Source: a virus. From it: a stretch of DNA of 25,486 nucleotides. Positions 9,711 through 24,869 of the stretch are shown piece by piece. The first letter of the stretch is position 1; the number at the start of each line of letters is the position of its first letter. The stretch spans positions 1 through 25,486 of the IMG/VR virus record IMGVR_UViG_3300010885_026285. One strand, 5' to 3'. Both the position numbers and the translations under genes were made by a program. The notes below the pieces were generated by a model, which was not told where the DNA came from, did no database searches, and saw nothing but the letters and a program-made list of their open reading frames with translations.

Positions 9711-9741
9711 ATTTGACCTTGTTTTTAGATAATTATAATAT

Positions 9742-9770
9742 ACAATATAGCATATATGGTAAAAAGTCAA
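9742..9770 (-). promoter_or_regulatory. possible sigma70-like promoter for the uvsW operon
   Basis: On the minus strand TTGACT (9765-9770) is followed after 17 bases by TATTGT (9742-9747). The overlapping TATATT at 15 bases has a TGC before it, so it could act as an extended -10. The same TTGACTT hexamer context occurs in the porin promoter. The 77-base divergent gap also contains a plus-strand TATAAT (9734-9739) with TTGACC 15 bases upstream, a weaker candidate for the SprT-like gene. Confidence 0.4.
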
Positions 9771-9787
9771 TACTGTTGGTGGTTTTT

Positions 9788-10186
9788 ATGCAAAAGAGGA
9801 AAGCACTTAAATTAAGAAGAAAAATAAAAATAGCGACCATGAACGACCGCAGTCCTTATGTCACCACCAAACGATCTATAAATTTTTGGTTCAAATATAT
9901 CAATAAACAATTATTTGATGATCAATTACCTCCATTTGACAGAATAATTATTAAGAAATGGTTAAAAAAAGCCATCGGACAAGTATGCACATATCCTGAC
10001 AAAAATCCTAAAAGATTTGATTTGGAGATGTTAAAAAAATACAAGACAAAAAAAGAATTTATAGATACGCTGGCACACGAAATGATACACCTCTACCAAA
10101 TGGCTTGTCGCAAAGACACAGGTAATCACAATAAATTATTTTATAGTTTTAAACCTAAATTTAAATTTATTGGTCTAGAACTGTAG
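9788..10186 (+). CDS. SprT-like zinc metallopeptidase
   Basis: A 132-residue protein with the SprT/Spartan signature HEMIH (97-101), followed by a third zinc ligand candidate H114 in GNHNKLF. Spartan-family proteases cut proteins crosslinked to DNA, and SprT-like genes are recurrent in T4-like marine phages. I start at 9788, where GGTGG precedes the ATG; the longer reading frame from 9623 lies antisense to the UvsW-adjacent gene. A basic N-terminus (QKRKALKLRRK) suits nucleic-acid contact. It ends with a 20-base convergent overlap with the next gene. Confidence 0.82.
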   Translation: MQKRKALKLRRKIKIATMNDRSPYVTTKRSINFWFKYINKQLFDDQLPPFDRIIIKKWLKKAIGQVCTYPDKNPKRFDLEMLKKYKTKKEFIDTLAHEMIHLYQMACRKDTGNHNKLFYSFKPKFKFIGLEL

Positions 10187-10925
10187 ATTTAAATTCAGCG
10201 TAGGATATTATTTTTGTATTATTGTAACCAATGCCGTCCTGTAAATTATTAAATTGTTCTGGGGGATTGTCGTGAACCAACGTAAAGTTACAATAAGGTC
10301 TCATTTTAATTAAAAATCTTAATTGCTGGAACCATATATTGTAGAATGCTTTGTCATTTCTTGGACCGTAACATTCTGTTCCTTGGTATATGTTATTAAA
10401 CTGTCCGGGACCTTTATCTTGGAATTCAAATCCCATTAGATATAGATTCTTGTGACCATGCATACATGCCGTCCATGCTGCTGCCTTTCCGCTGGCCCAA
10501 AAAGGATTCCTGGGTATGAGAGATAATGTGCCAGGATAGCGATTTACTTCCAATGCCGGAGCATAACAAATACACTTTTCGTAAACTTTGTCGTCTACTA
10601 TTCGTTTGCTCATTTTTGAATCCACCATGAATAAAAAGTCTGGGATGAAATCTCTATACAATGCATTACAACCGTATGTTTGGCCTGTGGCTTTCAAACT
10701 ATTGAGATCAATTGCTTTACGTGATGGACCATTCCCTATGATATAAGCGTTGCCTCTTGCGACTGCCTTAACCTTGTCTTCATAGAAAGCAGTTTCTAAA
10801 GTTTTTTTGCCGCCTTTTATGGTTGTCCTAACCAGAACAGTTTCTCCTATGTAAGGTTTCCATTCTATTACAGGCACGTCTTGCACATATCTATAAACCG
10901 GAACTTCGTAATCGGGCATGGTCAT
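10167..10925 (-). CDS. GNGPS-motif protein, DUF115/glycosyltransferase-like
   Basis: A 252-residue protein. Its core, YIIGNGPSRKAIDL (61-74), CNALYRD (86-92) and FLFMVDSK (98-104), is the Rossmann-like GNGPS pattern of the DUF115 (motility accessory factor/sialyltransferase-like) family, which acts on nucleotide-activated sugars or adds sugars to proteins. The later LYLMGFEF fits the same fold. The start at 10925 overlaps the preceding transferase gene by ATGA. It is the first member of the glycan island read from the left. Enzymatic class is inferred from the motif and context. Confidence 0.7.
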   Translation of the reverse strand: MTMPDYEVPVYRYVQDVPVIEWKPYIGETVLVRTTIKGGKKTLETAFYEDKVKAVARGNAYIIGNGPSRKAIDLNSLKATGQTYGCNALYRDFIPDFLFMVDSKMSKRIVDDKVYEKCICYAPALEVNRYPGTLSLIPRNPFWASGKAAAWTACMHGHKNLYLMGFEFQDKGPGQFNNIYQGTECYGPRNDKAFYNIWFQQLRFLIKMRPYCNFTLVHDNPPEQFNNLQDGIGYNNTKIISYAEFKSTVLDQ

Positions 10926-11797
10926 ACTTTTATATATCTTTCTTCTAATCTATCTCTTATTCTTTTCCATGGCAGTCCTTCTTTAATTTCTTGCACTGTC
11001 CATTCTGTATATGCCATCTTGTTGGCCCAGTTTTTTCTGTCTGGCCTATTTGGATTTTCTATATTGCTTAACTCTTTATTTCCAACATCATAACACAAAC
11101 TTGATTCGCTGACAAACACAGGCACCCCGTTTATCACTGACTCAATGGCAGGATTAGAGGAATAATTTATTACAGTCCAAGCGTCTTTTAATATCTTTTT
11201 AAAATCTGTATCATCGTAGGTCTCACTGTCCATTTGTGGTTGCCCAACAAAAACATTTTCATATTTTTTTGCATCAAATTTAAAAAGATTTCTAGGATGG
11301 GGTCTAACCAATATTGGTCTTTGACTATATTTTCTAATTTCATTGATTTGTTCTTCTACCCAATTGGGCATGGGGGATTTTCCTTGCCATTGGTTGCTTT
11401 TATCGTGTTGTCCTAATATCACAATGTTATTTCCTGTATCACGCCACGGTTGCATCGTTATTCCAAACAAAGGCCAACGTTTGTCATCAAAAACATCATT
11501 GGCAAAATCTGCATCTCTATTGATGCCATTTATTGCCATTTTCCATGTGATGTTTCTTTTCAATCCCCCTACTTCAATAACCACAACAGGTTTGTTCCTC
11601 TTGCGAAAACCATCCCAAATTTTTTTATTTTTTGACATTCTACCCATCCATAACACAGACCATATTATGGCGACATCACAATCATTATCTTGATTAATGT
11701 ACACTTCTTCGCCTTTTGATTTAAGATGTTCTATCAATGCAGAAAATACAGGCCTGCTGTTCAAACTTCCGTTCTCGGTATAAATTGCTATTTTCAT
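10922..11797 (-). CDS. capsule-synthesis-like GT-B glycosyltransferase, paralogue 1
   Basis: A 291-residue protein starting at 11797, where ATGA overlaps the previous stop. The C-terminal half carries RPHPRN (165-170), SSNPAIESVINGVPVF (213-228) and the tail signature PDRKNWANKMAYTEWTVQEIKEG (252-274). The same blocks occur in the genes at 15062, 16035 and 19378, so the four form one family. They resemble the KpsC/KpsS and CDP-glycerol glycerophosphotransferase type of GT-B proteins, where an 'SN..iE....G.PV' segment lines the donor site. The expected role is transfer of a sugar or polyol phosphate to a surface glycan. Donor and acceptor are unknown. Confidence 0.7.
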   Translation of the reverse strand: MKIAIYTENGSLNSRPVFSALIEHLKSKGEEVYINQDNDCDVAIIWSVLWMGRMSKNKKIWDGFRKRNKPVVVIEVGGLKRNITWKMAINGINRDADFANDVFDDKRWPLFGITMQPWRDTGNNIVILGQHDKSNQWQGKSPMPNWVEEQINEIRKYSQRPILVRPHPRNLFKFDAKKYENVFVGQPQMDSETYDDTDFKKILKDAWTVINYSSNPAIESVINGVPVFVSESSLCYDVGNKELSNIENPNRPDRKNWANKMAYTEWTVQEIKEGLPWKRIRDRLEERYIKV

Positions 11798-12702
11798 TTT
11801 AATGTTGGCGGAACTTTCTTCCAATAATCTACTTCCCAAACATTAGCTGGCGAGTTTTCCATTTGCGGTCTAAGATCATTCCTGGCACTGCTGCCCAGTT
11901 GTTTTCTTTTACCCTTCATGTGATCTATGTATAATCCTAATTCGCTATTAACAAACACATGGTGACCTTTAACATTCTTTGCATATCCTATATCGTTTAC
12001 TTTGATATTATATTGTTTTGTGAATTGTCTCACTAAATGCCAAAACACATAACTGTCATGCCATTCTAACAATTTAAAAACGTCGTCGGTGCTATAAAGT
12101 TTTTCCCATTCTGCAGCAAATTCTTTGATGTTAGGATGATTTAAATTATATCCAACAAAACCACATTCGGGATATTTGCCACCGTCGTTAAGTGCAAATC
12201 TTTCTCTGCCTAAATAAGTCACCATGGTATCTGCGGGCAAAAGAGTTTCGATAAAACCAGAAGGCATGGGTCTAAAAGTGAACACGTCAGCATCTATCCA
12301 GACCACGTAATCATAACCAGCACTTTTTTTTATAGCATTGGTCACACAGAAAACTTTATTGCTAAATCTCACAGCGTCCCAAAGGTATGATCCTTTGTTC
12401 TTGTCCAATCCGCCCAATTTTTGTAATGCTACAGGTCTCCTAACACCATTCGGTATCTCTTGTAATTCTCCACAGGCCACTGGGTCGTCCTTGTGTTTAT
12501 TTTTAAATTTAAAGAGTTCTGGTTCTGCACTATTAAGGTCCACCCATGTGATCCTAGGATGATCGTAGTTGGGTTTGGGTTCTTCGCAATAAACAACCAA
12601 ATCGACTTCGGCAGGCCAATTCTCAGCGATGCTCTTGATGCCTCTGCCCGAGTAGGTATCCCACGTGCCTGGTTTATAAGAAGTAATGGCCTTGATTTTC
12701 AT
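11794..12702 (-). CDS. GT-A-like glycosyltransferase
   Basis: A 302-residue protein with WIDADVFTF (135-143), a DxD metal and nucleotide-sugar binding motif (D137, D139), after a preceding strand YDYVV. CGFVGYNLNHP lies further on, where GT8-type enzymes place the acceptor loop. The start at 12702 is chosen over 12750 because the longer form would run into the divergent methyltransferase gene; only a 30-base AT-rich gap with no clear ribosome site is left. It is coupled to paralogue 1 by ATGA. Predicted to move a hexose from a nucleotide sugar. Confidence 0.75.
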   Translation of the reverse strand: MKIKAITSYKPGTWDTYSGRGIKSIAENWPAEVDLVVYCEEPKPNYDHPRITWVDLNSAEPELFKFKNKHKDDPVACGELQEIPNGVRRPVALQKLGGLDKNKGSYLWDAVRFSNKVFCVTNAIKKSAGYDYVVWIDADVFTFRPMPSGFIETLLPADTMVTYLGRERFALNDGGKYPECGFVGYNLNHPNIKEFAAEWEKLYSTDDVFKLLEWHDSYVFWHLVRQFTKQYNIKVNDIGYAKNVKGHHVFVNSELGLYIDHMKGKRKQLGSSARNDLRPQMENSPANVWEVDYWKKVPPTLK

Positions 12703-12732
12703 ATTAAATAATGTATATTTACTTCGGCTAAA

Positions 12733-13326
12733 ATGGAAAAAATAATTCACGACTTACAATACATGCCCAAAGGTCACACGGGTCATTTATGTGGCACTAA
12801 AGAGGTTGTAGATGCTTGGTTAGATTTCTATAGTGATTTTAAATTTACCAATTTATTACAATTCGGGTTCAATACCGGGTGGAGTGCTGCATTACTACTG
12901 ACAATGTTTCCCGAAGTAAAAGTAACCAGCATAGAATTAGTTAAGATTGATAATTCGTCCAGAGCAGTGGACATATTGGAAGAACGATTCCCCGGCAGGC
13001 ACACAATACTTTGGGGCAACAGCATAGACATTGCTGGAGAGGTCATGTCAAATAATTTAAAAATGCCATTACCGATTTACGATGCTGCTTTCATCGATGG
13101 TGGACATTCCGAAGAAGTGACCGACAACGATATCAAACTCTGCAGATATCTAGGCATAAAGAATTTTATTTTTGATGACGTACATAATGATGAAATCAAG
13201 AAAGCAATAGAGAATAACAATTTAAAATTATCAGCAAAAAAATTTTATAAAGAAACAAAATATAAAATTAAAGGTTATGTGTTCAAAAATAATGTAATTG
13301 AACTCAGCGCCTATCATGTAAAATAA
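12733..13326 (+). CDS. class I SAM-dependent methyltransferase
   Basis: A 197-residue protein of the Methyltransf_24-like type. The SAM site LLQFGFNTGWSAALLL (41-56) replaces the usual GxGxG with GFNTG. VTSIELV (64-70) and AFIDGGHSEEVTDNDI (119-134) are typical of the family. In a glycan cluster it probably O-methylates a sugar or a pathway intermediate, but a small-molecule substrate is not excluded. It is divergent from the transferase at 11794 across 30 bases and ends one base from asnB. Confidence 0.82.
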   Translation: MEKIIHDLQYMPKGHTGHLCGTKEVVDAWLDFYSDFKFTNLLQFGFNTGWSAALLLTMFPEVKVTSIELVKIDNSSRAVDILEERFPGRHTILWGNSIDIAGEVMSNNLKMPLPIYDAAFIDGGHSEEVTDNDIKLCRYLGIKNFIFDDVHNDEIKKAIENNNLKLSAKKFYKETKYKIKGYVFKNNVIELSAYHVK

Positions 13327-13327
13327 A

Positions 13328-15061
13328 CTACATCTGCATATTATATATTTGTGCCCAAGATTTCAATATCAACGCAGGCACTCTGCTCTTTTCTTTTTGT
13401 ATGGCATTTACATATTGGCTAAAACAATCTTTAGTTGAATTAATTTTTGCAAGAAAATCAGTTAATGCAGGACTCTTTTTTGTCCATTGCACCACAGGAC
13501 AAGTCCAGCCGCTTTTGTATTTGTTTATTATGTAATCGGGCAATCTGCCTCGATAGGCCATCTTCGTAGGCAATTTAAGATTATTTTTGTTAATTTTTTC
13601 TTTGCTATGAATGCTCATAGCATATTTTGCAAAATGTTTGGTAGCCAAAGGAAACCTTCCTTCCATACTAAATGCCATCCCATAACTATCGTTTCTAGAA
13701 AAAAATTCTCCAGGCACCTGTGTAATAGCATCTAGCGCCATATATGATCCTACTGGATCTGCGGGATTCCAAAATAGTTCTTCTGGATATAATAACATTA
13801 ATTGTGTTTTTATTTCTTCCCCATCGATATCGTTGTTGGCGAATCTTATAGGATTTTTTATTCTTTTCATCCATTGGTCTATCACAGCAGACCAAGAGTC
13901 CATTTTTAATTCTCCGAGATCCAGGCCTTGTATCATATTCCAATACTTAGGATAACCACCCAACAATTCATCTCCCATATCGCCGGCCATGGTTACTGTT
14001 ATGCCATTTTCGCTGAGAAATTTATTAGTGTAGTAATACATGACTTGGCTCTGATTGTAAACTGGTTGCTCCATTGAGTATATGGCTTTATTCCAGTTCT
14101 CTAATATAACCTCGGGGGTTATAGGTATTTCTGTGTGATCAAATGCATTGGCCCTTGCTAACTTGCTTGCTGTACTAGCATCGCTGTTTAAATCTTCCGA
14201 GCCAATGAAAACTGGCGGCATAAAGGAATTTGTGAATGTTCTTACGTGGCCATGCAATTGTTTTAACTCGTATGCTATTATACTACTATCTAATCCCCCG
14301 CTGAGAAATACTCCAATCCTTTTTTGTCCTATACTGGTCATTGCGATTGATTTTTTAAAAATATTTCTATATTCTTCTGCATCAAATTTTGTATTAGAGG
14401 TAGGTGTCTTATGATCTAGATAATTGGCAACAAAACGTTTAGACAAACAATCATATACTCTTGATTCACCCGGCATCAATTTTGATACGTTTGAAAAAAA
14501 AGTATTACGCATGGCATTGATTCCTGTTAACGATAAACAGTTTAATGCTAATCTATCCACTTGCCTGCTTCCGGGTACTCGATCCAACATACCTTTGATC
14601 TCAGACCCAAAAATTAATCCTTCTCTCACCTCGGCATAATATAATGGCTTGATACCATGATAACCCCTACTGATCAACAAATGATTCTTCTTAATATCAT
14701 AATAAGCAAAAGCATGCATGGAATCCATCTGCTTAACAAACTCATAACCATGGATATCCAATCCCCAAGCCAGCAGTTCAGTATCACATTTAGTTTTGGG
14801 GATAAATTTGTCTTGATAGTGTTCTAATAGGTCGTAGTAATTAAAAATTTCGCCATTGTACACCAATATGTTGCCAGCCGGCGTCTTCCACGGTTGCAGA
14901 GAATTTTTAGCATCGTCGGTTATGGCTAGAAGATTGTGACCCAGTGTGATATAATCGTTGTTCCAAATACCGTTACCATCTGGTCCTCTGTGGGAACAAA
15001 TTTTAATATAATCTGCTATTGCTTCTCGATTATTTTCTGTTATTCCATATATGCCACACAT
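13328..15061 (-). CDS. asnB: glutamine-hydrolysing asparagine synthetase
   Basis: A 577-residue two-domain enzyme. The N-terminal glutaminase begins MCGIYG with the catalytic Cys2 and has CSHRGPDG (22-29) and VYNGEIFNYY (67-76). The synthetase domain has the PP-loop SGGLDSS (254-260) and AGDMGDELLGGY further on. In glycan clusters such enzymes often amidate uronic acids rather than make free asparagine, as in O-antigen loci; I infer that possibility from context. It follows the preceding gene without a gap: the TAA is directly followed by ATG. Confidence 0.93.
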   Translation of the reverse strand: MCGIYGITENNREAIADYIKICSHRGPDGNGIWNNDYITLGHNLLAITDDAKNSLQPWKTPAGNILVYNGEIFNYYDLLEHYQDKFIPKTKCDTELLAWGLDIHGYEFVKQMDSMHAFAYYDIKKNHLLISRGYHGIKPLYYAEVREGLIFGSEIKGMLDRVPGSRQVDRLALNCLSLTGINAMRNTFFSNVSKLMPGESRVYDCLSKRFVANYLDHKTPTSNTKFDAEEYRNIFKKSIAMTSIGQKRIGVFLSGGLDSSIIAYELKQLHGHVRTFTNSFMPPVFIGSEDLNSDASTASKLARANAFDHTEIPITPEVILENWNKAIYSMEQPVYNQSQVMYYYTNKFLSENGITVTMAGDMGDELLGGYPKYWNMIQGLDLGELKMDSWSAVIDQWMKRIKNPIRFANNDIDGEEIKTQLMLLYPEELFWNPADPVGSYMALDAITQVPGEFFSRNDSYGMAFSMEGRFPLATKHFAKYAMSIHSKEKINKNNLKLPTKMAYRGRLPDYIINKYKSGWTCPVVQWTKKSPALTDFLAKINSTKDCFSQYVNAIQKEKSRVPALILKSWAQIYNMQM

Positions 15062-16045
15062 TTAGAATCCTAATTTCTGTTTAAATCTACGAAACACTGT
15101 GCCATCTTTGATCTCTTGTGTTGTCCACATTTTATAACCAAGGTCATTGAGCCATTGTGTCCTGTCGGGATATTCTGGGTTTTCTATGTTTTTTAAATCC
15201 TTATTAGCCACGGGCCAACAAATAGCGAGATCAGAAGTGCAAAACGTAGGTATGCCTCTTACACAACTGTCGGTGCTTGCAGTTGAATTATGAGTGACCA
15301 CCGCATGACAAGTTGATATAGCTTCTTGAAAATTAAATCTATAATATTTTTTTGAATCTCCTTGAAAATATTTTGGACCTATTATTACCTGCACATCTTT
15401 AGGAAATTCTCCAATTCTGTTTTCCATTGCTGCCATGTGATTAGGATGCGGCCTAACCAAAAACGGTCTAGATGTCAAGGGCCTTAATTTGTTATACACA
15501 TCTTTAAACCAATCCACGGGGTCAAGTTCATTCATGCTCCAATTGTCCTTAGGCTGCAATACAAAAAGTATTGGATCGTTTGTGTTTGATTTCCTCCAGG
15601 GATCGTTTTTTATATTCCATAATTGTTTCATCATTTCCCAACGATCACCGGGACTATTATCTGATAGGAAATCTCCATTATTCATGGGAGAATAGAGAGC
15701 GACTCGCCAATGATGTTGGGGATGATTAATCACATTTCCAAAACTGCTGAGCAACCCACCATCAAAAGTTATAATCTTTGTACCTTTTGCTTTGGCTCTT
15801 TCTACCAATTCTAATCTTCTTCCTTTTGTATGATGTCTTTGATTGGTTCCTCCATAGCCAAACATACAACCGATGGGAGTTGTTGGATTCATTTCATTAT
15901 CTTTTGTTGGTCCTTCTAAATTTTCATTCACAATTATTGGATTGTCTCCGCACTTCTTAATTCCTTCGGCCATATACTTTAATAATTCCCAGCTCTCACC
16001 GCGTTTACGATCTTTTACCGTCCTTCTAAAAATTTCAACGTCCAT
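15062..16045 (-). CDS. capsule-synthesis-like GT-B glycosyltransferase, paralogue 2
   Basis: A 327-residue member of the four-gene family, with RPFLVRPHPNHM in the middle, NSTASTDSCVRGIPTF as donor-site block, and PDRTQWLNDLGYKMWTTQEIKDG near the end. Its longer N-terminus (MDVEIFRRTVKDRKRGESW...) differs from the others. GGGAGG six bases before the start at 16045 is one of the strongest ribosome sites in the island. The start lies 11 bases inside paralogue 3, so these two are translated together. Role as in paralogue 1, with probably a different donor or acceptor. Confidence 0.7.
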   Translation of the reverse strand: MDVEIFRRTVKDRKRGESWELLKYMAEGIKKCGDNPIIVNENLEGPTKDNEMNPTTPIGCMFGYGGTNQRHHTKGRRLELVERAKAKGTKIITFDGGLLSSFGNVINHPQHHWRVALYSPMNNGDFLSDNSPGDRWEMMKQLWNIKNDPWRKSNTNDPILFVLQPKDNWSMNELDPVDWFKDVYNKLRPLTSRPFLVRPHPNHMAAMENRIGEFPKDVQVIIGPKYFQGDSKKYYRFNFQEAISTCHAVVTHNSTASTDSCVRGIPTFCTSDLAICWPVANKDLKNIENPEYPDRTQWLNDLGYKMWTTQEIKDGTVFRRFKQKLGF

Positions 16046-16850
16046 CTAGTACCTCCCATGCATAGCCATTTATTATTTCCTCTTGTGTGAACTGTCCATA
16101 GGCCAATGAATAATAACAAGGTTCTCTATCTGTGTATCTGGGTGTTTCGATTTTTGAAAAATCTAATTCTGCAATAGGTGCGCAGGCATTCATACTATCA
16201 GTAAAAACAGGTATTCCTCTAGCAGTGGCTTCTATTGTTATATTGCTATTGAATGCTACTATTGCATGTGTGTCATTCCAATCTATCGGTGTAGATGTAT
16301 CTTCGTTATCGCTCGGTCCTGGCATTAATCTCCCTAATTCATCAATTTTACTGTCGGGGTTATATCCTTTGTTTCTTACCACGATCTCTCTATCGGTGTT
16401 TTCTTTTAAAATTTTTAATGTATTATCTAGCCAAGATTCTTGATTGAACATTACAGCAATACTGTGTGTGGGTGGACAAATAACAATCTTACTGCCGGTC
16501 TTTTTCCATGGTTCTATATTAAATGGAAAATATTTTTTAAATCTATCATTGGACCTGTCTTCTAAAAAATTTTTAGTATGACCATTTTTAGTTATTCTTA
16601 ATATTCCTGGATATTTGCGACTCTCCCCCCAATAGGGTCGATCCATAAAATAAAAATTAACACAATTTTGCTGTGCCCAATTGTAGACCACATTGGTGCC
16701 TCTCAATATTCCGAATAGCACAACCTTGGTTGCATCTTTCTGTGCAATAACTTGGTCCCATGGTAATATCTTTGATCCGGGCAAACCCTGCTGTGCTGCC
16801 AGCATGTATCTCTCAGTGGCCGGTCTATCTGTCTTGCTAATATAAATCAT
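16035..16850 (-). CDS. capsule-synthesis-like GT-B glycosyltransferase, paralogue 3
   Basis: A 271-residue member of the family. It is most like the gene at 19378 along its whole length: MDRPYWGESR against TDTPYFGRFD, LEDRSNDRFKKY against IKDCPSDRFDKF, ESWLDNTLKILKENTDRE against PNWLDDTVKEIKRHTDRP. Donor-site block NSNITIEATARGIPVF and tail REPCYYSLAYGQFTQEEIINGY are present. The first aspartate of the PDR tail motif is kept as TDR. It starts at a 35-base divergent spacer with no clear ribosome site. Confidence 0.7.
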   Translation of the reverse strand: MIYISKTDRPATERYMLAAQQGLPGSKILPWDQVIAQKDATKVVLFGILRGTNVVYNWAQQNCVNFYFMDRPYWGESRKYPGILRITKNGHTKNFLEDRSNDRFKKYFPFNIEPWKKTGSKIVICPPTHSIAVMFNQESWLDNTLKILKENTDREIVVRNKGYNPDSKIDELGRLMPGPSDNEDTSTPIDWNDTHAIVAFNSNITIEATARGIPVFTDSMNACAPIAELDFSKIETPRYTDREPCYYSLAYGQFTQEEIINGYAWEVLDGR

Positions 16851-16885
16851 TTTACTAATAATTATCCAGTTAAATAAATTGTAAA

Positions 16886-17638
16886 ATGAAAAATCTTGTC
16901 ATACAGTACTATATAGACACTGCATTGTATTCAATGCCAGAGTTTAATAACTTAAAACCCAGCCCGGTAGAAGAATACAGCAGTTATAGTTTCGTGCAAT
17001 ACTGCAAAAAATATGATGTTGATTATATAAAGATTACCAAACCTAAACTTGGTTTCAAACACCCTACCTGGGAAAGATTTGATCTTTGGTTAGATGGGTC
17101 CTGGTGGGATCGATACGACAACATCATGTATGTGGACAGTGATGTTTTTGCATTGCCCAATGCAAGAAATGTGTTTCAATTGTACAACAAGGTTGGAGCG
17201 TTTAAATCTCCAGTGTATGCAAAATTTAGATATGCAATAACAAAAGATTTAATATCTATAGTTAAAAATAATCCGTTAATGACAGATATGTCTTTAAAAG
17301 AAATACGCAAGAAAGTAATACAACCTGGAGTTTTTATATTAGACAAATTATCTGCTGAAAAAATGTTACCGTTTATTGAAAAATATAAAGATATAACAGA
17401 TCCGTGCATTGATGATGGCATGTGGTTAAATGATTGTTTAATTAGAAGCAAAATAGAAATACAGGACATGGATCCTAGATGGAATGTTAAAAATAATGGA
17501 GATAAAATAAATTTAAAAGATATATTTTTTTGGCATTGCGCGGGAGGAAAAAAACACAAAAGTGGCACACGCTTATGGAAAGAATTGGCAAAAATCTATC
17601 CGGATGTTAAGGTCGATACCTCACATCTTATTAAGTAA
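16886..17638 (+). CDS. GT8-like GT-A glycosyltransferase
   Basis: A 250-residue protein with NIMYVDSDVFAL (79-90) carrying the DxD pair D84/D86, PGVFILDK as acceptor-side strand, and a C-terminal FFWHCAGGKKHK that matches the metal-binding H...G.KPW-like tail of GT8 enzymes. It likely adds a hexose to the glycan. The upstream GTAAA before ATG is a poor ribosome site. It ends in an 18-base convergent overlap with the GT61 gene. Confidence 0.78.
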   Translation: MKNLVIQYYIDTALYSMPEFNNLKPSPVEEYSSYSFVQYCKKYDVDYIKITKPKLGFKHPTWERFDLWLDGSWWDRYDNIMYVDSDVFALPNARNVFQLYNKVGAFKSPVYAKFRYAITKDLISIVKNNPLMTDMSLKEIRKKVIQPGVFILDKLSAEKMLPFIEKYKDITDPCIDDGMWLNDCLIRSKIEIQDMDPRWNVKNNGDKINLKDIFFWHCAGGKKHKSGTRLWKELAKIYPDVKVDTSHLIK

Positions 17639-18703
17639 ATTTAATATTTCAGAAACATCAACAGTAATATTATTATAATCATCCAATCTTTTAACTCCTA
17701 CAGGTTTGTTATTTCCTAAAGGTACTTTTTCTCCCAATAGTAAATGATGTTCTAAATTCAGATGGTGAGCAAGCAAAGGATAGGGTTTTTTGTTTATTTG
17801 CTCTTGGTGATTAATCTCTATTACTTTTGTGCCTGTCTTGCACCAAAGGAGATTGACAAGGCCTGCGCCATGTGTGCCGATCACATGGCTGGCACTAGAA
17901 AAAGTTTCAATTTGTTGTTTTATATTCATTTCTTCCAGAGATATATTTTCCCAACCCTTTAATGAGAGAAACAATTCCTCGGCATTGGTTAATTGTCGTG
18001 TTAACGCATTTTTTCTCGATATAAAAATTTTTCTATTTGGCTGTTCTATTTTAGATGAAAACTTATGTCTTAACCATAGAGCCATTTCGGGAACAGTTAC
18101 GCCATCTTCGTGATTGCTCATGGAAGGAGCATATATGTGTTTGAATCTCCATGTCGAGTGCTCGGGCATGGTATAATATTTTAAATCTGGAAACAGTGTT
18201 TTAACAACTTTTACAAAATATTCGCTCTCGTTGCTGAGTATGTACTCGTATTCCAGATAACTTTTATTGTATCTTTTCTCCATCAATCTAAATTTTGATA
18301 TAACGTCTATCCAGATGTGCCATGGATTATTTGCACTCTGTTTATCTATCGGCAACCACACATAATTTGCCACCCCTGTAAAACTTTTATCAAATTTTGG
18401 CAGGTTAAGTTTGATAGTATCCCCCCATCTATCCCATAAACCGTGCCCTGTCTTTTTTGGTTTCATTTTTATGTTGCTGAGCAACGGCCACAACGGTGTG
18501 GTAATCATATTTCCAGAATCGGTCACTAATAAAGGCAAACTATGTACCATGCAATCAACAAATTCGGCAACGAATGTTGGGCTGGTAACAAATTCCTTCT
18601 TATCCGACAATGGATGATAATCCACGCTGTATCTGACCGGAGAATCAATTATCTCAAATTTCTCTAGGAAATACTGCAATGCTGAAATATTTTTTACTAT
18701 CAT
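17621..18703 (-). CDS. GT61-family (DUF563) glycosyltransferase
   Basis: A 360-residue protein. The diagnostic block is THGAGLVNLLWCKTGTKVIEI (277-297), with RKIFISRKNALTRQL (224-238) before it, as in the DUF563/GT61 enzymes that transfer pentoses, GlcNAc or sialic-acid-like sugars. The start at 18703 is preferred over 18835 because the longer form would run into the divergent SGNH gene on the other strand. There is no visible ribosome site, but TATAAT lies 16-21 bases upstream. Convergent overlap with the GT8-like gene. Confidence 0.8.
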   Translation of the reverse strand: MIVKNISALQYFLEKFEIIDSPVRYSVDYHPLSDKKEFVTSPTFVAEFVDCMVHSLPLLVTDSGNMITTPLWPLLSNIKMKPKKTGHGLWDRWGDTIKLNLPKFDKSFTGVANYVWLPIDKQSANNPWHIWIDVISKFRLMEKRYNKSYLEYEYILSNESEYFVKVVKTLFPDLKYYTMPEHSTWRFKHIYAPSMSNHEDGVTVPEMALWLRHKFSSKIEQPNRKIFISRKNALTRQLTNAEELFLSLKGWENISLEEMNIKQQIETFSSASHVIGTHGAGLVNLLWCKTGTKVIEINHQEQINKKPYPLLAHHLNLEHHLLLGEKVPLGNNKPVGVKRLDDYNNITVDVSEILNLLNKM

Positions 18704-18737
18704 TGTTTTTTTAATAATTATACTATAAAATAGACAA

Positions 18738-19403
18738 ATGCCCAAACTATTTTCCAATGGCTGCAGTTTCCTAACGTATAACCCAAAAAACGGGGTTGAT
18801 ACTTTTGTTACAGAAATACTGGCAAAAGAATACAATTTACCTTTGGAAAATTATGCCAGGGGCGGTCGAGGAAATAATCGTATCAGTTTTTCAACTAAAG
18901 TTTGGTTAGAACAAAATAGAGCAGATGACTATTTTGTGGTAATAGGGTGGTCCAGTGCGTTTAGACAAGACTACATTGCCTCTCATGATCCCAAACCAAT
19001 AAGACATGCAGGCACAGAATTAAAATGGCAGACATGGAAAACCATACAAAAATTAGATTTTATAAGATCTCTAGGAAATCTAGATATAGAAGATACAGCG
19101 TGTGTCAACTACCTAGATAACATAATTGATTTGCAAAATTATTTTCAATTACGTAAAATACCTTACGTGATGTATAATGCACTTCCCCCGATCTTTAATT
19201 TAAATAAAATTGATTTTAAAGTAATGCATAGATTGATAGACATGAGAAGATTTTTTAATTTTGAAACTAGCCATTTTGATTTTATCAAAAAGAATAATTA
19301 TGTAGTTGATGTGAACGATCCCCATCCAAGCAGTGAAGGACACAAAGAATGGACAAAATTATTGAGGAACTTTATAGATGCTAATAATCTACGCTCCATC
19401 TAA
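18738..19403 (+). CDS. SGNH-hydrolase-like protein
   Basis: A 221-residue protein with the serine block NGCSFLTY (7-14), GRGNN (43-47) carrying the Gly and Asn of the oxyanion site, and DPHPSSEGH (194-202) with the catalytic Asp and His. Such enzymes act as esterases or acyltransferases; in a glycan cluster, removal or transfer of O-acetyl groups is plausible. It starts 34 bases from the GT61 gene in a divergent pair and overlaps paralogue 4 by 26 bases, so the two are co-translated. Confidence 0.72.
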   Translation: MPKLFSNGCSFLTYNPKNGVDTFVTEILAKEYNLPLENYARGGRGNNRISFSTKVWLEQNRADDYFVVIGWSSAFRQDYIASHDPKPIRHAGTELKWQTWKTIQKLDFIRSLGNLDIEDTACVNYLDNIIDLQNYFQLRKIPYVMYNALPPIFNLNKIDFKVMHRLIDMRRFFNFETSHFDFIKKNNYVVDVNDPHPSSEGHKEWTKLLRNFIDANNLRSI

Positions 19404-20190
19404 TAAACCAGACAGCAAGTGCTGGGAAATTTTTAATGGAATAAAAACAAATTGGCCCAACGGCGTCGCGGTCAAAGATAATAACGAAATATCTGCAAAA
19501 TCTCCAGCAATGTTTTGGGGATTCATAAACAATAATATAAAATTAATACATCAATTAGAGTCGTCAGAGTTGGATTATTGGTACACTGATACTCCTTATT
19601 TTGGAAGATTTGATAACAATAATTTAAAAGAAGATAACCATTACTGGAGAATTTGTAAAAATAAAATACATGCTAAGTTTATAAAAGATTGTCCTTCGGA
19701 TAGATTTGATAAATTTAATTTAAAAATAAAAAATAGAAATAAAAATCTAGGCAAGTATATTCTTATTTGTCCTAGTAGCATGGGGGTACATAACTATCTT
19801 AAGAAACCCAACTGGTTAGATGATACTGTAAAAGAAATAAAGAGACACACAGACAGGCCAATTAAAATAAGAGAAAAACCCAGAAAAGATGGCACATCTG
19901 GGCCTGCTGTGGCCGATATATCTCTAGAACAGGATTTACAGGATGCCTGGGCGTGTGTAACTAGTTGCAGTATCAGTGCGGTAGAGGCAGCATTACAGGG
20001 AGTTCCTGTGTTTTCAGATCCAAAAAGTTTTGCTTGGACTATTTCTTCCATGAGTTTATCTGAGATTGAAGATCCTTTCTATGTTGATCCCACACAATGG
20101 TTTTATTCTTTGGCTTATCAACAATTCACTCCTAAAGAATTTAAAGATGGCACAGCAATGAGTATATTAAAAGAATACTCGTTTCTATAG
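19378..20190 (+). CDS. capsule-synthesis-like GT-B glycosyltransferase, paralogue 4
   Basis: A 270-residue member of the family and the closest relative of paralogue 3 in this window, but on the opposite strand about 2.5 kb away. It keeps ILICPSSMG, DRPIKIREKPRKDG in place of RPHP, CSISAVEAALQGVPVF as donor-site block, and PTQWFYSLAYQQFTPKEFKDG at the end. The overlapping start inside the SGNH gene lacks a clear ribosome site and relies on coupling. The family relation between paralogues 3 and 4 is clear; the enzymatic class is inferred. Confidence 0.7.
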   Translation: MLIIYAPSNKPDSKCWEIFNGIKTNWPNGVAVKDNNEISAKSPAMFWGFINNNIKLIHQLESSELDYWYTDTPYFGRFDNNNLKEDNHYWRICKNKIHAKFIKDCPSDRFDKFNLKIKNRNKNLGKYILICPSSMGVHNYLKKPNWLDDTVKEIKRHTDRPIKIREKPRKDGTSGPAVADISLEQDLQDAWACVTSCSISAVEAALQGVPVFSDPKSFAWTISSMSLSEIEDPFYVDPTQWFYSLAYQQFTPKEFKDGTAMSILKEYSFL

Positions 20191-20206
20191 GAATAATTAA
20201 TATATC

Positions 20207-21208
20207 ATGAAGATTTTTATAACAGGCGTTGCCGGGTTTTTAGGATCGCATCTGGCAGATCTTATGCTATCCGATGGTCATCAAGTTGCTGGTAACGATA
20301 ACATGATTGGTGGTTACAGTGATAACATACCAGAGGGAGTGGAATTTCATCAGATTGATTGTCGGGATCTAGATAAGATAACCGAGGCCATGCGAGGCAG
20401 TGATATAGTATATCATTGTGCCGCCGCTGCTTATGAGGGATTGAGTGTGTTTAGTCCATTATTGGTGACGCAGAATATATTTGAAGCATCTGTATCCACA
20501 GTTACAGCAGCAATAAAAAATCAAGTTAAAAGATTTGTGTATTGTTCTTCGATGGCAAGATACGGAACTAACCAAGTGCCTTTCCGCGAAGAGTACGAAC
20601 CCAATCCACAGGATCCTTATGGTATTGCCAAAGAAGCAGGAGAACGAGTGATTAAAAATTTATGTGACACGCACGGCATAGAATGGAACATAGCAGTACC
20701 TCACAACATTGTGGGTCCTAGACAGAAGTATGATGATCCTTTCCGTAATGTGATGAGCATTATGTTGAATAGAATGCTACAAGGTAAAGCGCCAGTGATA
20801 TATGGAGACGGGGAACAAAAGAGATGTTTCAGTTATATCGACGACTGTCTCTATTGTTTAAATGAGTTGGCATTCAATGAGAATGTCAAAGGAGAAATAA
20901 TCAACATAGGTCCCGATGAAGAATTCGTAAGCATTAATCAACTATCAGCACTGTGTGCGAATGAAACAGGTTGTAATTTGGATCCTATACACTACGAAGA
21001 CCGACCCAAAGAAGTAAAACTAGCCACGTGTTCGGCAGACAAAGCTCGCCGATTATTAAATTATCGTACCACTACCAATTTAAAAACTGCCATAAAGAAA
21101 ACAGCCGATTATATTAGACAAAGAGGCACAAGAAAATTTAAATATCATTTGCCTCTGGAAATTGTTAATGAGAAAACTCCCAAAACATGGAAAGATAAGT
21201 TAATATGA
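20207..21208 (+). CDS. extended SDR, nucleotide-sugar epimerase/dehydratase-like
   Basis: A 333-residue protein. The NAD site is GVAGFLGSHL (7-16, GxxGxxG), the active site S114-S115 in YCSSMARYG and Y138-G-I-A-K142. The middle and C-terminal parts, with FSYIDDCLYCL and GEIINIG, are typical of UDP-glucose 4-epimerase and related UDP- or GDP-sugar enzymes. It supplies an activated sugar for the transferases around it; the exact sugar is not visible. It follows paralogue 4 after a 16-base gap and overlaps the next gene by 4 bases. Confidence 0.9.
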   Translation: MKIFITGVAGFLGSHLADLMLSDGHQVAGNDNMIGGYSDNIPEGVEFHQIDCRDLDKITEAMRGSDIVYHCAAAAYEGLSVFSPLLVTQNIFEASVSTVTAAIKNQVKRFVYCSSMARYGTNQVPFREEYEPNPQDPYGIAKEAGERVIKNLCDTHGIEWNIAVPHNIVGPRQKYDDPFRNVMSIMLNRMLQGKAPVIYGDGEQKRCFSYIDDCLYCLNELAFNENVKGEIINIGPDEEFVSINQLSALCANETGCNLDPIHYEDRPKEVKLATCSADKARRLLNYRTTTNLKTAIKKTADYIRQRGTRKFKYHLPLEIVNEKTPKTWKDKLI

Positions 21209-21942
21209 TATCAATTTTGTGTCCATCCAGAGGACGTCCGGATCTTGCAAGAAGAATGATAGAAACTGCCAGCAACATGTCCAGCAAGACCGTGGAGATT
21301 GAATTTTTGTTATATCTAAATCAGGATGATCCTCATATTAATCGTTACACAAAAATATTAAATTCAAAACATTATAGTATAGGACAACATCAATCCACGT
21401 GTCTTAGTTGGAATCAATTAGCAGAAAAAGCCAAATTTGATATATTGTTCCTAGCAGGAGATGACATACAATTTGAAACGAAAAATTGGGATCTTAATAT
21501 TGTTAATGTATTTGAAAAGGTTCCAGATAAAATTTGTATGGCTGCACCATTTGATGGCAACAGAAAAGGAAATGGAAATGCATTATTGGTTAATGCATTA
21601 TTGGTTAATGATGAACCTTATATATTAAAAGAGAACGAGCAAGTGGGCAGTCCACATTTTGCATTACATAAAAATTGGATGAAGGCACTGGGTTATTTTG
21701 TACCTCCATTTTTTTGGCATTTTTACGTAGACACATACACACAACATGTGGCCAAGAAATTAGGAAGATGTTTTTTTCTTACAAAAACCATAGTAGGAGC
21801 AAAAAAATTATTAGATCACACAGGAAAACTAACAAGAGGACATGTTGCTTTAAGAGACGATTTTGTTTGGGCGAAGGTACAAAGACATCTAGATACCGAC
21901 GTAGCAAAATTAAAAGAATTTATAGATAATTTTAAGAATTAA
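21205..21942 (+). CDS. GT2-like glycosyltransferase with an internal 15-bp duplication
   Basis: A 245-residue protein. It begins with the GT2-like MISILCPSRGRPD (1-13) and has LFLAGDDIQF (81-90) as the nucleotide-sugar DxD-type site. PPFFWHFYVDTYTQHVAKKLG is the acceptor-side helix. The codons for NALLV are repeated in tandem at residues 125-134, which adds five residues in frame. It is coupled to the epimerase gene by ATGA and meets the convergent gene with a 4-base overlap. Confidence 0.78.
   Translation: MISILCPSRGRPDLARRMIETASNMSSKTVEIEFLLYLNQDDPHINRYTKILNSKHYSIGQHQSTCLSWNQLAEKAKFDILFLAGDDIQFETKNWDLNIVNVFEKVPDKICMAAPFDGNRKGNGNALLVNALLVNDEPYILKENEQVGSPHFALHKNWMKALGYFVPPFFWHFYVDTYTQHVAKKLGRCFFLTKTIVGAKKLLDHTGKLTRGHVALRDDFVWAKVQRHLDTDVAKLKEFIDNFKN
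21577..21606 (+). repeat. perfect 15-bp tandem duplication
   Basis: Two adjacent identical copies of AATGCATTATTGGTT (21577-21591 and 21592-21606), followed by a further AATG. It lies in frame within the GT2-like gene and duplicates the pentapeptide NALLV. Confidence 0.95.
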
Positions 21943-22400
21943 TTTAATAAAGTTTTAATCCTATCGATAGTTTCTGCGGAGAAATAAACTTCACAAAACG
22001 GTCTTAACATCAATGAATTTTTCCTATTTCCTATTTCAAAAGAGTTATTAGTTTCTATTATTAATATAGCATTTCCTACATATCTCAGCATCTTTTCAGA
22101 TTTATTATTTTTAAGATAAACATTACCTTTTACACTAAAATCTGTTCTCTGCTTAAAGAACCAATATCCCACGTATGGTTGAGACTTATCTGTGGTTGGT
22201 TGTTGTATAAAATCATCATGAAACAATATTTTTACTTTATTATGATCGATAAATTGTCTCCAGGACAGATGATCGGCATTTTTCCATTGCTCGTAAAGTT
22301 TGTCGTATGAATCTGTTTTGATGAAACTATTGCAGTATAGGTGTTTTATGGGTTCGTTATAACAACTCTTTTTTGTTATGTTCCATATATGGTGGATCAT
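21939..22400 (-). CDS. hypothetical protein in the glycan island
   Basis: A 153-residue protein starting at 22400, where ATGA overlaps the stop of the adjacent transferase gene; the longer form from 22433 would overlap that gene more. It is rich in aromatic and charged residues, with a beta-rich C-terminal half (NAILIIETNNSFEIGN). No signal peptide, membrane segment or known catalytic motif is seen. The tight coupling suggests it works with the transferase at 22397, for example as an acceptor or accessory subunit, but that is inference. Confidence 0.65.
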   Translation of the reverse strand: MIHHIWNITKKSCYNEPIKHLYCNSFIKTDSYDKLYEQWKNADHLSWRQFIDHNKVKILFHDDFIQQPTTDKSQPYVGYWFFKQRTDFSVKGNVYLKNNKSEKMLRYVGNAILIIETNNSFEIGNRKNSLMLRPFCEVYFSAETIDRIKTLLN

Positions 22401-23071
22401 GACGAGAACAGATTTATTAATTCTTTCTTCCAAACGTCCGCATATTCACAATCTCTGTAATTTTCAAACCACGGACCGCCCTCGGTATAGTGCAATATCT
22501 TTGGGGAACCATCTCGAGGTTCTTTATACCAACCCACCAGCCAATTATATTCGCAAGGCATAGAGCCTATTTCGTTGTCGTCCAACCAGCTGAACCTATG
22601 CAAATATTTGCCTGTTTCGCGATTGACTAATTCTGGGGTTAATAGTTTATTTTTAGGATGAGCGCAGTTCCATAATACCATCGAACTCCAATTTTTTCTT
22701 GGATATAGTAATTGTGCTTGTCCATCCATTTTGGTGCCTTCTTCTGGTGTATAGTCGTGTTGTACGCACACCACTGCTTTGCTATCATCACAATATTGTT
22801 TCAATTCGTCTGCATCTATTCGCCAAACAAAATCGCAATCACAAAATACCGCCCAACCTTGATAATTTTGTATGTGAGGTATTAAAAACCTTGTAAAGGT
22901 AAATTCTGTGCTGGATAACTTGTCTATTTCTCGAGTGTATATGCCTGCCTCTCTCAAAGATTTCATTTTTAGAGGAACCACTTCTGTATTTTTATTTCTT
23001 CTTTTAATAGAATGTTCGCATACTTGATATGATATATCTTCTCTCGTATCGTAACCTACAAATACTTTCAT
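22397..23071 (-). CDS. GT-A-like glycosyltransferase
   Basis: A 224-residue protein. It begins with MKVFVGYDTRE (1-11), and WAVFCDCDFVW (73-83) gives a DxD site (D78, D80) with a cysteine at the middle position. The late LHYTEGGPWFENYRD is a metal- and donor-binding C-terminal motif of this group. Similar short transferases occur in proteobacterial surface-glycan loci. It overlaps the kinase-nucleotidyltransferase gene by 4 bases, linking donor synthesis and transfer. Confidence 0.78.
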   Translation of the reverse strand: MKVFVGYDTREDISYQVCEHSIKRRNKNTEVVPLKMKSLREAGIYTREIDKLSSTEFTFTRFLIPHIQNYQGWAVFCDCDFVWRIDADELKQYCDDSKAVVCVQHDYTPEEGTKMDGQAQLLYPRKNWSSMVLWNCAHPKNKLLTPELVNRETGKYLHRFSWLDDNEIGSMPCEYNWLVGWYKEPRDGSPKILHYTEGGPWFENYRDCEYADVWKKELINLFSS

Positions 23072-23847
23072 AGTTTTCCTTCATCCCTCATTTTTTTTCT
23101 AATGTCGGTAGCAGAAATTTTCTGTATATTTTCTGGTAAAACAATCTCCTCTATCTTGTAACCAACTCCCCTGCCGTAACAAATATTAGTTATATTTGGT
23201 ACTAGGGTTATTTTAATTCTGTTCTTATAAGGTTGTAATGCTTGTTCTATATTCTTTTTAACTGTTTCAAAATCAAAAGGATTGTCTCCCACACCCTGCA
23301 CATCTCGAACTTGTATGTTTACTTGTCCTGTTTTTTTGATAATTTCTTCAAATAGAGCTTGATGTCCTTCGTGCCATGGTTGCCATCTACCCAACATCTG
23401 GGCTGTGGGTTTACGATTATCCCAAACATAGTCTTGTATTTCATCTGCTATTCTCAATGACCATAGTTCAGCATTTTGTGTGGGTACTCGAAAATCATAT
23501 TCTTCTGGAGGCACAAACATTTTGTTGGTGTCCTCAAAACGTCCTTCTTTGATAGTATCTACCCATACAGTATAATCAGCAGCAAAGTCTTCTCGAGTTT
23601 TTGGAGTTGGGCAAACAAAATCAGCAATCACATGTTTTCCATGGTCTAATCCTTCTTGTGCTAGACGTTTCATTCGTTCTGCTTGTCTTGTTCTGCCTTC
23701 GGGAGAAAAATCCCAATCGTTAGCTTCTGCTCTTACTCGGTCAGCATTTAGCCACGTAGCACCCAGTATAGTTGACAGTTTATCAGAGAGATAACTTTTA
23801 CCCGATCCTGGTAATCCCATTACTAATATTTTTTTATTTTTTGCCAT
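23068..23847 (-). CDS. kinase-nucleotidyltransferase fusion
   Basis: A 259-residue two-domain protein. The N-terminal half resembles APS-kinase/CysC-type P-loop kinases: GLPGSGKS (11-18), LNADRVR (33-39), FSPEGRTRQAERM (47-59), VIADFVCPT (73-81). The C-terminal half is a short nucleotidyltransferase with GRWQPWHEGH (153-162, HxGH) and ISATDIRKKM (244-253), the signature of NMN adenylyltransferase and glycerol-3-phosphate cytidylyltransferase relatives. The order is kinase then transferase, the reverse of NadR, and the second domain is far too small for ATP sulfurylase, so it is not a PAPS synthetase. The kinase could phosphorylate a small alcohol or sugar that the second domain activates with CTP or ATP. 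It overlaps the HAD gene by 14 bases. Confidence 0.76.
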   Translation of the reverse strand: MAKNKKILVMGLPGSGKSYLSDKLSTILGATWLNADRVRAEANDWDFSPEGRTRQAERMKRLAQEGLDHGKHVIADFVCPTPKTREDFAADYTVWVDTIKEGRFEDTNKMFVPPEEYDFRVPTQNAELWSLRIADEIQDYVWDNRKPTAQMLGRWQPWHEGHQALFEEIIKKTGQVNIQVRDVQGVGDNPFDFETVKKNIEQALQPYKNRIKITLVPNITNICYGRGVGYKIEEIVLPENIQKISATDIRKKMRDEGKL

Positions 23848-24427
23848 TTACAACTCTGTAGATATGTTCCCAATTATTTACTCTGATAATTTTTCTATTA
23901 TAAAATTTTTTATTGTAAGTGTGTGTATAGATAATTGGTTTAAGACCGTATTCTAAACCTTTTTTTGCATTGGTCCATTTATCTTCCACCCACCAAAGAT
24001 CGGTTCCGTGAAATTCTGCTAATGCTGAATCTTTGTCATCTCCAGTCTCTAGTATAAAAAAATTACCGAATACTGTGCCTCCAAATAATTCAGCTAATCT
24101 TTTTTTCCTTAATTCCTGTGCTGGTATATCTGACGTTTGCGAAGTTATTGGTATAAAAGTCCATCCTTCTGCATGTAATAATTTGACCCACGTTTGCGAA
24201 TCTGGCATAGGTTGTTGGGTGGACATCCATGCACTTTTGTTAAATTCTTTTATTAATTCTGTTTTAAGGTCTTTGTGTATACCGTATCTTAAATCGATAT
24301 TGTAAACATTATCTGTATTTTTGAGTTTTTTGAAACCTTTTTGTTTCATCCATTGAGCAAAATGTCCTTCCCATTCAAGAAGTACGCCATCTACGTCAGT
24401 TAATATGATTCTATCTAATTGTGGCAT
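23834..24427 (-). CDS. HAD-superfamily phosphatase
   Basis: A 197-residue protein with the nucleophile motif ILTDVDGVLLEW (8-19; D11, D13), motif II ITSQTSD around 94-100 and a late WWVEDKWTNAKKG in the position of the Asp/Lys motif. Length and layout suit small phosphatases of the GmhB or phosphoglycolate type. Beside a kinase-nucleotidyltransferase it may remove the phosphate between two activation steps, as in ADP-heptose synthesis. It overlaps uvsY by 17 bases, so it is expressed with the recombination operon. Confidence 0.75.
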   Translation of the reverse strand: MPQLDRIILTDVDGVLLEWEGHFAQWMKQKGFKKLKNTDNVYNIDLRYGIHKDLKTELIKEFNKSAWMSTQQPMPDSQTWVKLLHAEGWTFIPITSQTSDIPAQELRKKRLAELFGGTVFGNFFILETGDDKDSALAEFHGTDLWWVEDKWTNAKKGLEYGLKPIIYTHTYNKKFYNRKIIRVNNWEHIYRVVNGKK

Positions 24428-24869
24428 CTTCCATACCAGCCACTCGAAGTTTAACTATGTTAGTTAACTGCCATTGTTTTTGATCTAAACCTTTGGTTAT
24501 ACCCAACCATTTGTTTCTTAATAAAGCAAATTCGTTCACAATTTTTTCCATGTCTACCACATCAGATTCGCCATCCACGTATTTGTCTGCATCTCTAGAT
24601 GTTAATGCTCTATTATAATTTTCTAAAAACTTTTTAAATGTTTTTGCTCTTAATCTTCTTTTTTCAATGTTCAGATATTCTAATATGGCTTCTATTTCTT
24701 GTAATTGATTGAATCTTTGTTCAACTACTCCAGGTAATGCTGCAGCCGCTTTTTCTAAATTTCCAAAAATATATATTTCTTTGCGTGCAGATTCTAATTC
24801 CTGGTCAAAATATTTTATGCAGTCGGGTATCAATCCGATATCTTGGCTTACTTTAGTATACCAGCTCAT
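24411..24869 (-). CDS. uvsY: UvsY recombination mediator
   Basis: A 152-residue protein that loads UvsX recombinase onto gp32-coated single-stranded DNA. LTSRDADKYVDGE (89-101), VNEFALLRNKWLGI (111-124) and WQLTNIVKLRVAGMED (133-148) match the conserved core of UvsY in marine T4-like phages; T4 UvsY has 137 residues. It overlaps the next upstream gene by one base (TAATG). Neighbouring UvsX supports the call. Confidence 0.9.
   Translation of the reverse strand: MSWYTKVSQDIGLIPDCIKYFDQELESARKEIYIFGNLEKAAAALPGVVEQRFNQLQEIEAILEYLNIEKRRLRAKTFKKFLENYNRALTSRDADKYVDGESDVVDMEKIVNEFALLRNKWLGITKGLDQKQWQLTNIVKLRVAGMEDATIR

Follow-up and report, generated by a model that had tools for sequence, protein, structure and literature searches.

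The stretch of DNA analyzed here, termed the window, is a 25,486-base virus fragment from IMG/VR (record IMGVR_UViG_3300010885_026285). Between a SprT-like gene and uvsY it carries 17 tightly packed genes (10167–24427), which were delimited from open reading frames (ORFs) and their translations and are lettered A to Q in left-to-right order. The UvsW protein encoded in the window is nearest to those of jumbo phages, with Sinorhizobium phage Phosso at 55% identity and Agrobacterium phage Atu_ph07 and Pseudomonas phage PA5oct at ~51%. Eight of the 17 genes form a backbone that was found in every one of 51 complete uvsY–uvsW intervals, referred to as islands. The features are as follows, with the number of islands in which each occurs.

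9623–10186, plus strand: SprT-like gene, left boundary (PF10263); 49/51, evolves fast.
10167–10925, minus strand: A, putative glycosyltransferase of predicted Maf/GT42 (sialyltransferase-like) fold; backbone, 51/51.
10922–11797, minus strand (ORF to 11839): B, putative KpsC/WbbB-like GT-B paralog with an RPHP motif; backbone, 51/51.
11794–12702, minus strand (ORF to 12750): C, putative GT-A-like glycosyltransferase with a DAD motif (DxD in 55/55 copies); backbone, 51/51.
12733–13326, plus strand: D, class I methyltransferase (PF13578, E = 6.4e-6); optional, 3/51.
13328–15061, minus strand: E, AsnB-type glutamine amidotransferase with an N-terminal MCGIYG (PF00733, E = 2.3e-47; PF13537); optional, 26/51.
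15062–16045, minus strand: F, putative GT-B enzyme with the predicted fold of retaining Kdo transferases (AlphaFold model, motifs); backbone, 51/51.
16035–16850, minus strand: G, putative GT-B paralog with RxK(P/G) replacing RxHP; backbone, 51/51.
16886–17638, plus strand: H, putative GT-A-like protein with a DSD motif (phrog_28746; DxD in 9/9 copies); optional, 8/51.
17621–18703, minus strand (ORF to 18835): I, GT61 family glycosyltransferase (PF04577, E = 2.1e-21); 49/51.
18738–19403, plus strand: J, SGNH-hydrolase-like protein by motif only (GCS and DPHPS blocks; weak DUF6071 match); 40/51.
19378–20190, plus strand: K, putative GT-B paralog with RxKP replacing RxHP; backbone, 51/51.
20207–21208, plus strand: L, UDP-hexose 4-epimerase-like SDR (PF01370, E = 9e-45); optional, 21/51.
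21205–21942, plus strand: M, GT2-like glycosyltransferase (phrog_14945, E = 4.7e-27); optional, 17/51.
21939–22433, minus strand: N, protein of 164 amino acids with no match in Pfam and PHROG searches; optional, 25/51.
22397–23071, minus strand: O, putative GT-A-like protein with a DCD motif in 51/51 (phrog_28018, E = 1e-56; weak GT8 match); backbone, 51/51.
23068–23847, minus strand: P, fusion of an APS-kinase-like P-loop domain (PF01583) and an NMNAT-like nucleotidyltransferase; optional, 9/51.
23834–24427, minus strand: Q, HAD-superfamily (NT5C-like) phosphatase (PF06941 at 22.3 bits, below the cut-off of 24.8; phrog_420); backbone, 51/51.
24411–24869, minus strand: uvsY, right boundary (phrog_231, E = 3e-15).

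Beyond uvsY lies uvsX (phrog_97), which is cut by the edge of the window. The ORFs of three minus-strand genes were over-extended, with likely starts at 11797 (B), 12702 (C) and 18703 (I), and some ORF boundaries are approximate. Ten of the 17 genes encode putative glycosyltransferases (A, B, C, F, G, H, I, K, M and O), in agreement with a first-pass annotation that had described glycan synthesis and modification genes between recombination genes and at least nine transferases. Solid family matches were obtained for AsnB, GT61, the SDR epimerase, the methyltransferase, the APS-kinase-like domain and the GT2-like protein. A single-sequence Pfam search gave no significant match for the remaining putative transferases, for which support comes from aligned orthologs, from DxD or HP motifs that do not vary, from weak family matches (DUF6716, MptE, CST-I, GT2/GT8) and from two AlphaFold models. 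For gene C, weak GT2 matches appeared in 2/15 members. The tailoring enzymes named in the first-pass annotation are also present, namely the methyltransferase, AsnB and, judging from its motifs, the SGNH-hydrolase-like protein J. Its claim of a nucleotide-sugar supply held for the epimerase L, of which the best PDB match is a UDP-glucose 4-epimerase (4zrm, E = 1.9e-38). The supposed kinase-nucleotidyltransferase P resembles SAT/APS kinase (E = 1e-4) and NMNAT (E = 0.0085) in PDB profile searches, and the HAD protein Q is NT5C-like. A role for P as a supplier of nucleotide sugars was rejected as unsupported.

To find relatives, IMG/VR was scanned with UvsW, which yielded 80 loci with UvsW proteins 84–100% identical, a set that was not selected on island genes. 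Added loci were found through genes O and F, together with regions from their contigs, giving 51 non-redundant complete uvsY–uvsW intervals. All 51 contain Q, O, K, G, F, C, B and A, comprising seven putative glycosyltransferases and the HAD phosphatase-like Q. A single order is kept save in three islands (L170, L171 and L261), where G, K and F are rearranged by a local inversion. In the UvsW-anchored loci that reach far enough upstream of uvsW, the counts are 44/44 for A, 37/37 for B, 34/34 for C, 26/26 for F and 24/24 for G. The clade consists of large, uncultured phages sampled from many environments, among which UvsW identity falls to about 80%. Relative to the window copies, the backbone proteins are 39–88% identical as compared to 80–96% for UvsW, and gene O is the best-conserved transferase (70–88%).

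The remaining genes are cargo. In addition to those listed above, an FkbM methyltransferase (X1) is present in 37 of the 51 islands, a 2-oxoglutarate (2OG) oxygenase (X2) in 32 and a second FkbM methyltransferase in 22, frequencies that are sensitive to the simple ORF calls and BLAST-derived labels used. Rare cargo includes KdsB, GDP-mannose 4,6-dehydratase, DegT aminotransferase, sulfotransferase, radical SAM and RpiB/PfkB/HAD genes. There are 40 distinct cargo sets and the optional genes occur on either strand. The first-pass annotation had anticipated a swappable hypervariable module bounded by uvsW and uvsY; when the relatives were compared, the backbone proved to be conserved in content and order, an outcome that the annotation itself had named as contradicting its reading, and the cargo alone varies. 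With the backbone in every island and in the UvsW-anchored loci as well, the island is a conserved locus of the clade with variable decoration and not a swapped cassette.

Among 50,697 phage records, megablast returned no match to the island. Hidden Markov models of all island families found nothing in 28–31 kb around uvsW of Phosso, Atu_ph07 and Paride. Thus, the locus is clade-specific at this site.

Four of the backbone transferases belong to one family. The AlphaFold model of gene F was of good quality (predicted local distance difference test, pLDDT = 87.3), and the top 15 VIA-align rows were all WbbB, KpsC or KrkA (Z = 12.9–14.8, root-mean-square deviation (RMSD) of 3.9–4.8 Å over 242–263 residues). 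The next rows were unrelated proteins (Z of 11.1 or less, RMSD of ~7 Å or more). A Foldseek comparison with KpsC gave E = 3.7e-8 with a probability of 1.00. An hhalign comparison identified B, G and K as paralogs of F (probability 98.6–100%; 99.8 for B and F). Retaining transferases of 3-deoxy-D-manno-oct-2-ulosonic acid (Kdo) carry a QXXXD motif that holds the nucleophile and a (K/R)XHP motif for binding of cytidine monophosphate (CMP) (PMC12887879; PMC9587256). The latter is invariant as RPHP in F (50/50) and B (51/51). Both motifs are exact in a homolog from podovirus ct7QV12 (GQVPQDAS/RPHP) and in a bacterial homolog related to B (GQVPGDAS/RPHP). The bacterial gene, as read from the sequences, lies beside a VGNAP-type (GT29/42-like) protein, a GT2 and sulfotransferase-like genes. 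The phage GT-B family would therefore have the fold of retaining Kdo transferases and a relative in a bacterial surface-glycan-like setting. Fold search alone made the connection: a PDB profile search with an alignment of the four paralogs found no glycosyltransferase, and one with the podovirus homolog gave chance matches only.

Gene A may point to the same class of donor. Its profile matched CstII in the PDB (E = 4.5e-5), and among its members MptE-like PF01973 was matched in 15/17 and CST-I in 7/17. The AlphaFold model (pLDDT = 82.7) aligned best with Maf (5mu5, Z = 13.1 over 185 residues), followed by CstII (1ro7, Z = 11.2) and CstI (Z of ~11). From the model, gene A is predicted to have the fold of the Maf central domain and CstII. 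The core fold and the invariant GNGPS and CN motifs are shared with the Maf flagellin glycosyltransferases and GT42 CstII, and gene A differs from them as a minimal single-domain form. Unlike Maf, gene A is not known to modify flagellin.

A simple hydropathy scan of the transferase and cargo families of the 51 islands found no protein with several transmembrane segments. Neither a flippase, a polymerase nor an initiating membrane phosphoglycosyltransferase is present in any of the 51. The first-pass annotation had seen no polymerase or flippase in the window, and this now extends across the islands. Since a multi-pass membrane protein is missing, a Wzx/Wzy-type flippase/polymerase pathway is argued against. 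The earlier description of a nearly complete O-antigen-like pathway fares less well, since 26/51 islands have no nucleotide-sugar synthesis gene. In these islands, the backbone must draw on sugar nucleotides of the host. Two islands (L170 and L261) encode a KdsB-type CMP-Kdo synthetase, for which the best PDB matches are all KdsB (E = 5e-34). Considered alongside the CMP-type motif that F and B share and the Maf/GT42 fold predicted for A, KdsB suggests that the donor is a CMP-ulosonate.

From these observations we infer a donor sugar, an order of reactions, an acceptor and a biological role. The fixed transferases A, B, C, F, G, K and O, nearly always with I, and the HAD protein Q would build a common oligosaccharide from host-made sugars. 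Part of this glycan would be a CMP-activated ulosonic acid, most simply supplied as host CMP-Kdo, that is handled by A, F and B. Each phage would then add its own tailoring enzymes at fixed slots for O-methylation, oxidation, amidation, acyl removal or transfer and, in some phages, sulfation or the addition of one more sugar. The target of the amidotransferase could be a carboxylate on an acidic sugar, and that of J could be acyl groups. The likeliest acceptor would be a virion protein, with A as the candidate initiating O-glycosyltransferase, and variable decoration of the exposed end of the glycan may diversify the particle surface. A virion protein is favored because Maf enzymes of other bacteria can place Kdo on serine or threonine (PMC11339370) and because at least two glycoproteins were identified by proteomics in the Xanthomonas jumbo phage XacN1 (PMC5852040). 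That the island encodes a cytosolic, phage-specific line which uses a host CMP-ulosonate, probably CMP-Kdo, to glycosylate virion proteins is given roughly even chances. The reading in its fullest form is doubtful: an assembly line for protein O-glycosylation would be obligatory in a jumbo-phage clade of global distribution, with a minimal Maf-like enzyme and KpsC-derived transferases placing host CMP-Kdo on virion proteins and plug-in tailoring serving as a surface-variation system.

Several points weigh against virion glycosylation with a CMP-ulosonate. Gene F has an invariant Q-P-x-D-N (50/50) with the aspartate at +3, so the exact QXXXD motif is absent; the aspartate, one place early, still pairs with the nucleophile in one alignment. 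Gene B has no aspartate at the nucleophile position, and in G and K a lysine replaces the histidine of the HP motif in 51/51. With these imperfect motifs, the inference of the donor is weak for F, B, G and K. Gene F was not assigned to the retaining Kdo transferases (GT99/GT107/GT140) since the exact QXXXD motif is lacking. When the four paralogs and the podovirus homolog were compared by profile with bacterial KpsC modules, no significant similarity emerged (hhalign probability of 17 or less); similarity of KrkA to KpsC and WbbB at the sequence level is likewise reported as not significant (PMC12887879). At 252 amino acids, gene A is without the extra domains of full-length Maf (632-residue chain). 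The locus lies among recombination genes and not among structural genes. Two longer contigs, of 91 and 88 kb, have a second cluster past dnaB that encodes relatives of B, C, J, L and X1, and the window may therefore hold half of a two-part system. All of the results rest on metagenomic fragments and predicted structures.

Remodeling of the host envelope is the main rival to virion glycosylation and is regarded as a tentative possibility. Peripheral cytosolic transferases would extend or cap a lipopolysaccharide core or capsule precursor during infection and so block adsorption of competing phages (superinfection exclusion), as was proposed for the polysaccharide clusters of jumbo phages and the P-SSM2 type by Iyer et al. 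2021 (PMC7824862). KpsC and WbbB are themselves enzymes of capsule and O-antigen synthesis, and the bacterial relative of B with the full QXXXD/RPHP pair sits in a surface-glycan-like gene neighborhood. However, the backbone is constant over a clade of many environments while host surface glycans vary by strain, and no membrane component, initiating transferase or exporter occurs in any of the 51 islands. A product in the form of soluble glycosides or a small secondary metabolite, such as a signal or an antibiotic-like compound, in place of a glycoconjugate is improbable. The radical SAM, 2OG oxygenase, AsnB and SGNH genes would suit natural-product chemistry too, and such a product was considered for second cyanophage clusters by Iyer et al. 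(PMC7824862); the 7–10 glycosyltransferases per island, however, far exceed the need of known small glycosides, and the islands encode no carrier, ligase or exporter. Hypermodification of phage DNA, in which several sugars on a hydroxymethylated base provide armor against restriction, is a known strategy in its glycosylation step and would fit a locus between recombination genes. It is very unlikely in this case since the thymidylate synthase/dCMP hydroxymethylase family (PF00303) was not found in 16 related fragments of 42–91 kb, all of them incomplete genomes, no island protein scanned matched the T4 alpha- or beta-glucosyltransferase families, the folds are protein- or glycan-directed, and the tailoring enzymes are of the kinds that typically act on surface glycans. 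Free swapping of a hypervariable O-antigen-like cassette between conserved uvsW and uvsY would account for the number of cargo sets and the optional genes on either strand, and is almost certainly wrong given eight genes that are universal in the islands and in the unbiased UvsW-anchored loci and that keep one order save for the local inversion in three.

Several features of the locus and its surroundings stand apart from these interpretations. A 426-amino acid protein encoded at 8433–9713 of the window is present in 51/51 islands with 29–51% identity to the window copy. The SprT-like gene beside uvsW has 31–70% identity, and both evolve far faster than uvsW. Between islands, gene P is 71–93% identical (median 92%) while other genes there are mostly 40–75%. 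The position of P also shifts (Q-P-O or G-P-F), and together these suggest recent transfer. One island has an insertion of a FabI-like enoyl-ACP reductase (PF13561, E = 2e-74; L175:1798–2586). A scan of genome contigs for gene F identified four contigs of metagenome-assembled genomes (L258–L261). Two of these, L261 (NZHE01000029.1) and L260 (NHDJ01000070.1), from GTDB bacterial entries labelled Rickettsiales and Verrucomicrobia, contain an entire uvsY–uvsW island and thus represent phage sequence inside bacterial bins; L258 and L259 also encode F, so phage contigs are included in these bins.

The second cluster lies on the far side of the replication genes and also encodes radical SAM, 2OG-oxygenase-like and PP-loop proteins. 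Its two copies are:

G025:68813–90000 (L277, L278), in the 91-kb contig.
G026:1–19300 (L279, L280), in the 88-kb contig.

The proteins with multiple transmembrane segments in these contigs are nutrient transporters and not flippases. Directly after dnaB and a DnaE-like gene, the 91-kb contig has a complete ABC importer of the branched-chain amino acid (or urea) type (L277:8709–13312; G025:C1:64209–68812), whose five genes encode a binding protein, two permeases and two ATPases (PF13458, PF02653 twice, PF00005 twice); it was seen in one contig only, possibly a chimeric assembly. The same region beyond dnaB holds an FTR1 iron permease in the 91-kb contig (PF03239; L278:16643–17245, minus strand) and TctA beside a binding-protein-like gene in the 88-kb contig (PF01970; L279:10426–12762, minus strand). 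A Gram-negative porin gene (Porin_4, E = 7e-36) lies beside dnaB at 2–367 of the window (minus strand) and in full length at L012:15351–16409. It was found in six loci of the clade with no match among the 50,697 phage records, and the phage may carry it for nutrient uptake. A radical SAM/SPASM-like reading frame adjoins it (L012:16718–17584), with relatives identified by eye in both long contigs.

With clustered paralogous glycosyltransferases and sugar-modifying enzymes in a phage genome, the island belongs with the jumbo-phage polysaccharide clusters. It shares paralogous glycosyltransferases, epimerase, nucleotidyltransferase, HAD, 2OG oxygenase and methyltransferase genes with the P-SSM2-type clusters of jumbo phages and cyanophages (PMC7824862, section 3.4.10). 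Those sets were described as sporadic and polymorphic; in contrast, the island has a fixed eight-gene backbone at a fixed uvsY–uvsW site in a non-cyanophage, jumbo-related clade, and this backbone is made up of a KpsC/WbbB-like GT-B expansion and a Maf-like enzyme. Compared to the retaining beta-Kdo transferases WbbB (GT99), KpsC (GT107) and KrkA (GT140), with which F shares its whole-length fold, sequence identity is ~11%, there are four paralogs per genome and none of the four (F, B, G and K) has the exact QXXXD motif. The Pelagibacter phage Mosig EXVC030M has K-, G-, O- and C-like transferases with FkbM methyltransferases and a sulfotransferase (record positions 124832–130666), and an A-like gene elsewhere in its genome. 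Mosig differs as a T4-like Kyanoviridae phage with a smaller set at another genomic site and no best-scoring F or B in the region examined. In podovirus ct7QV12 (MW202713.1, L182:36117–40533), a DegT gene, a KpsC-like GT-B, a methyltransferase, a C-like transferase and a tibC-annotated gene lie directly beside the terminase. The same transferase families thus co-occur in the unrelated Mosig and ct7QV12.

Phage glycan clusters are already known as a kind, and it is this architecture that is new. Such clusters are commonly regarded as variable cargo derived from hosts, with a purpose that is uncertain. Since the backbone is found throughout the clade as universally as the recombination genes, it is probably important to these phages. 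The division between a fixed backbone and exchangeable decoration predicts one conserved acceptor and linkage with many terminal modifications. With two unannotated phage protein families now placed near structurally characterized CMP-sugar enzymes, both the donor and the acceptor become directly assayable.

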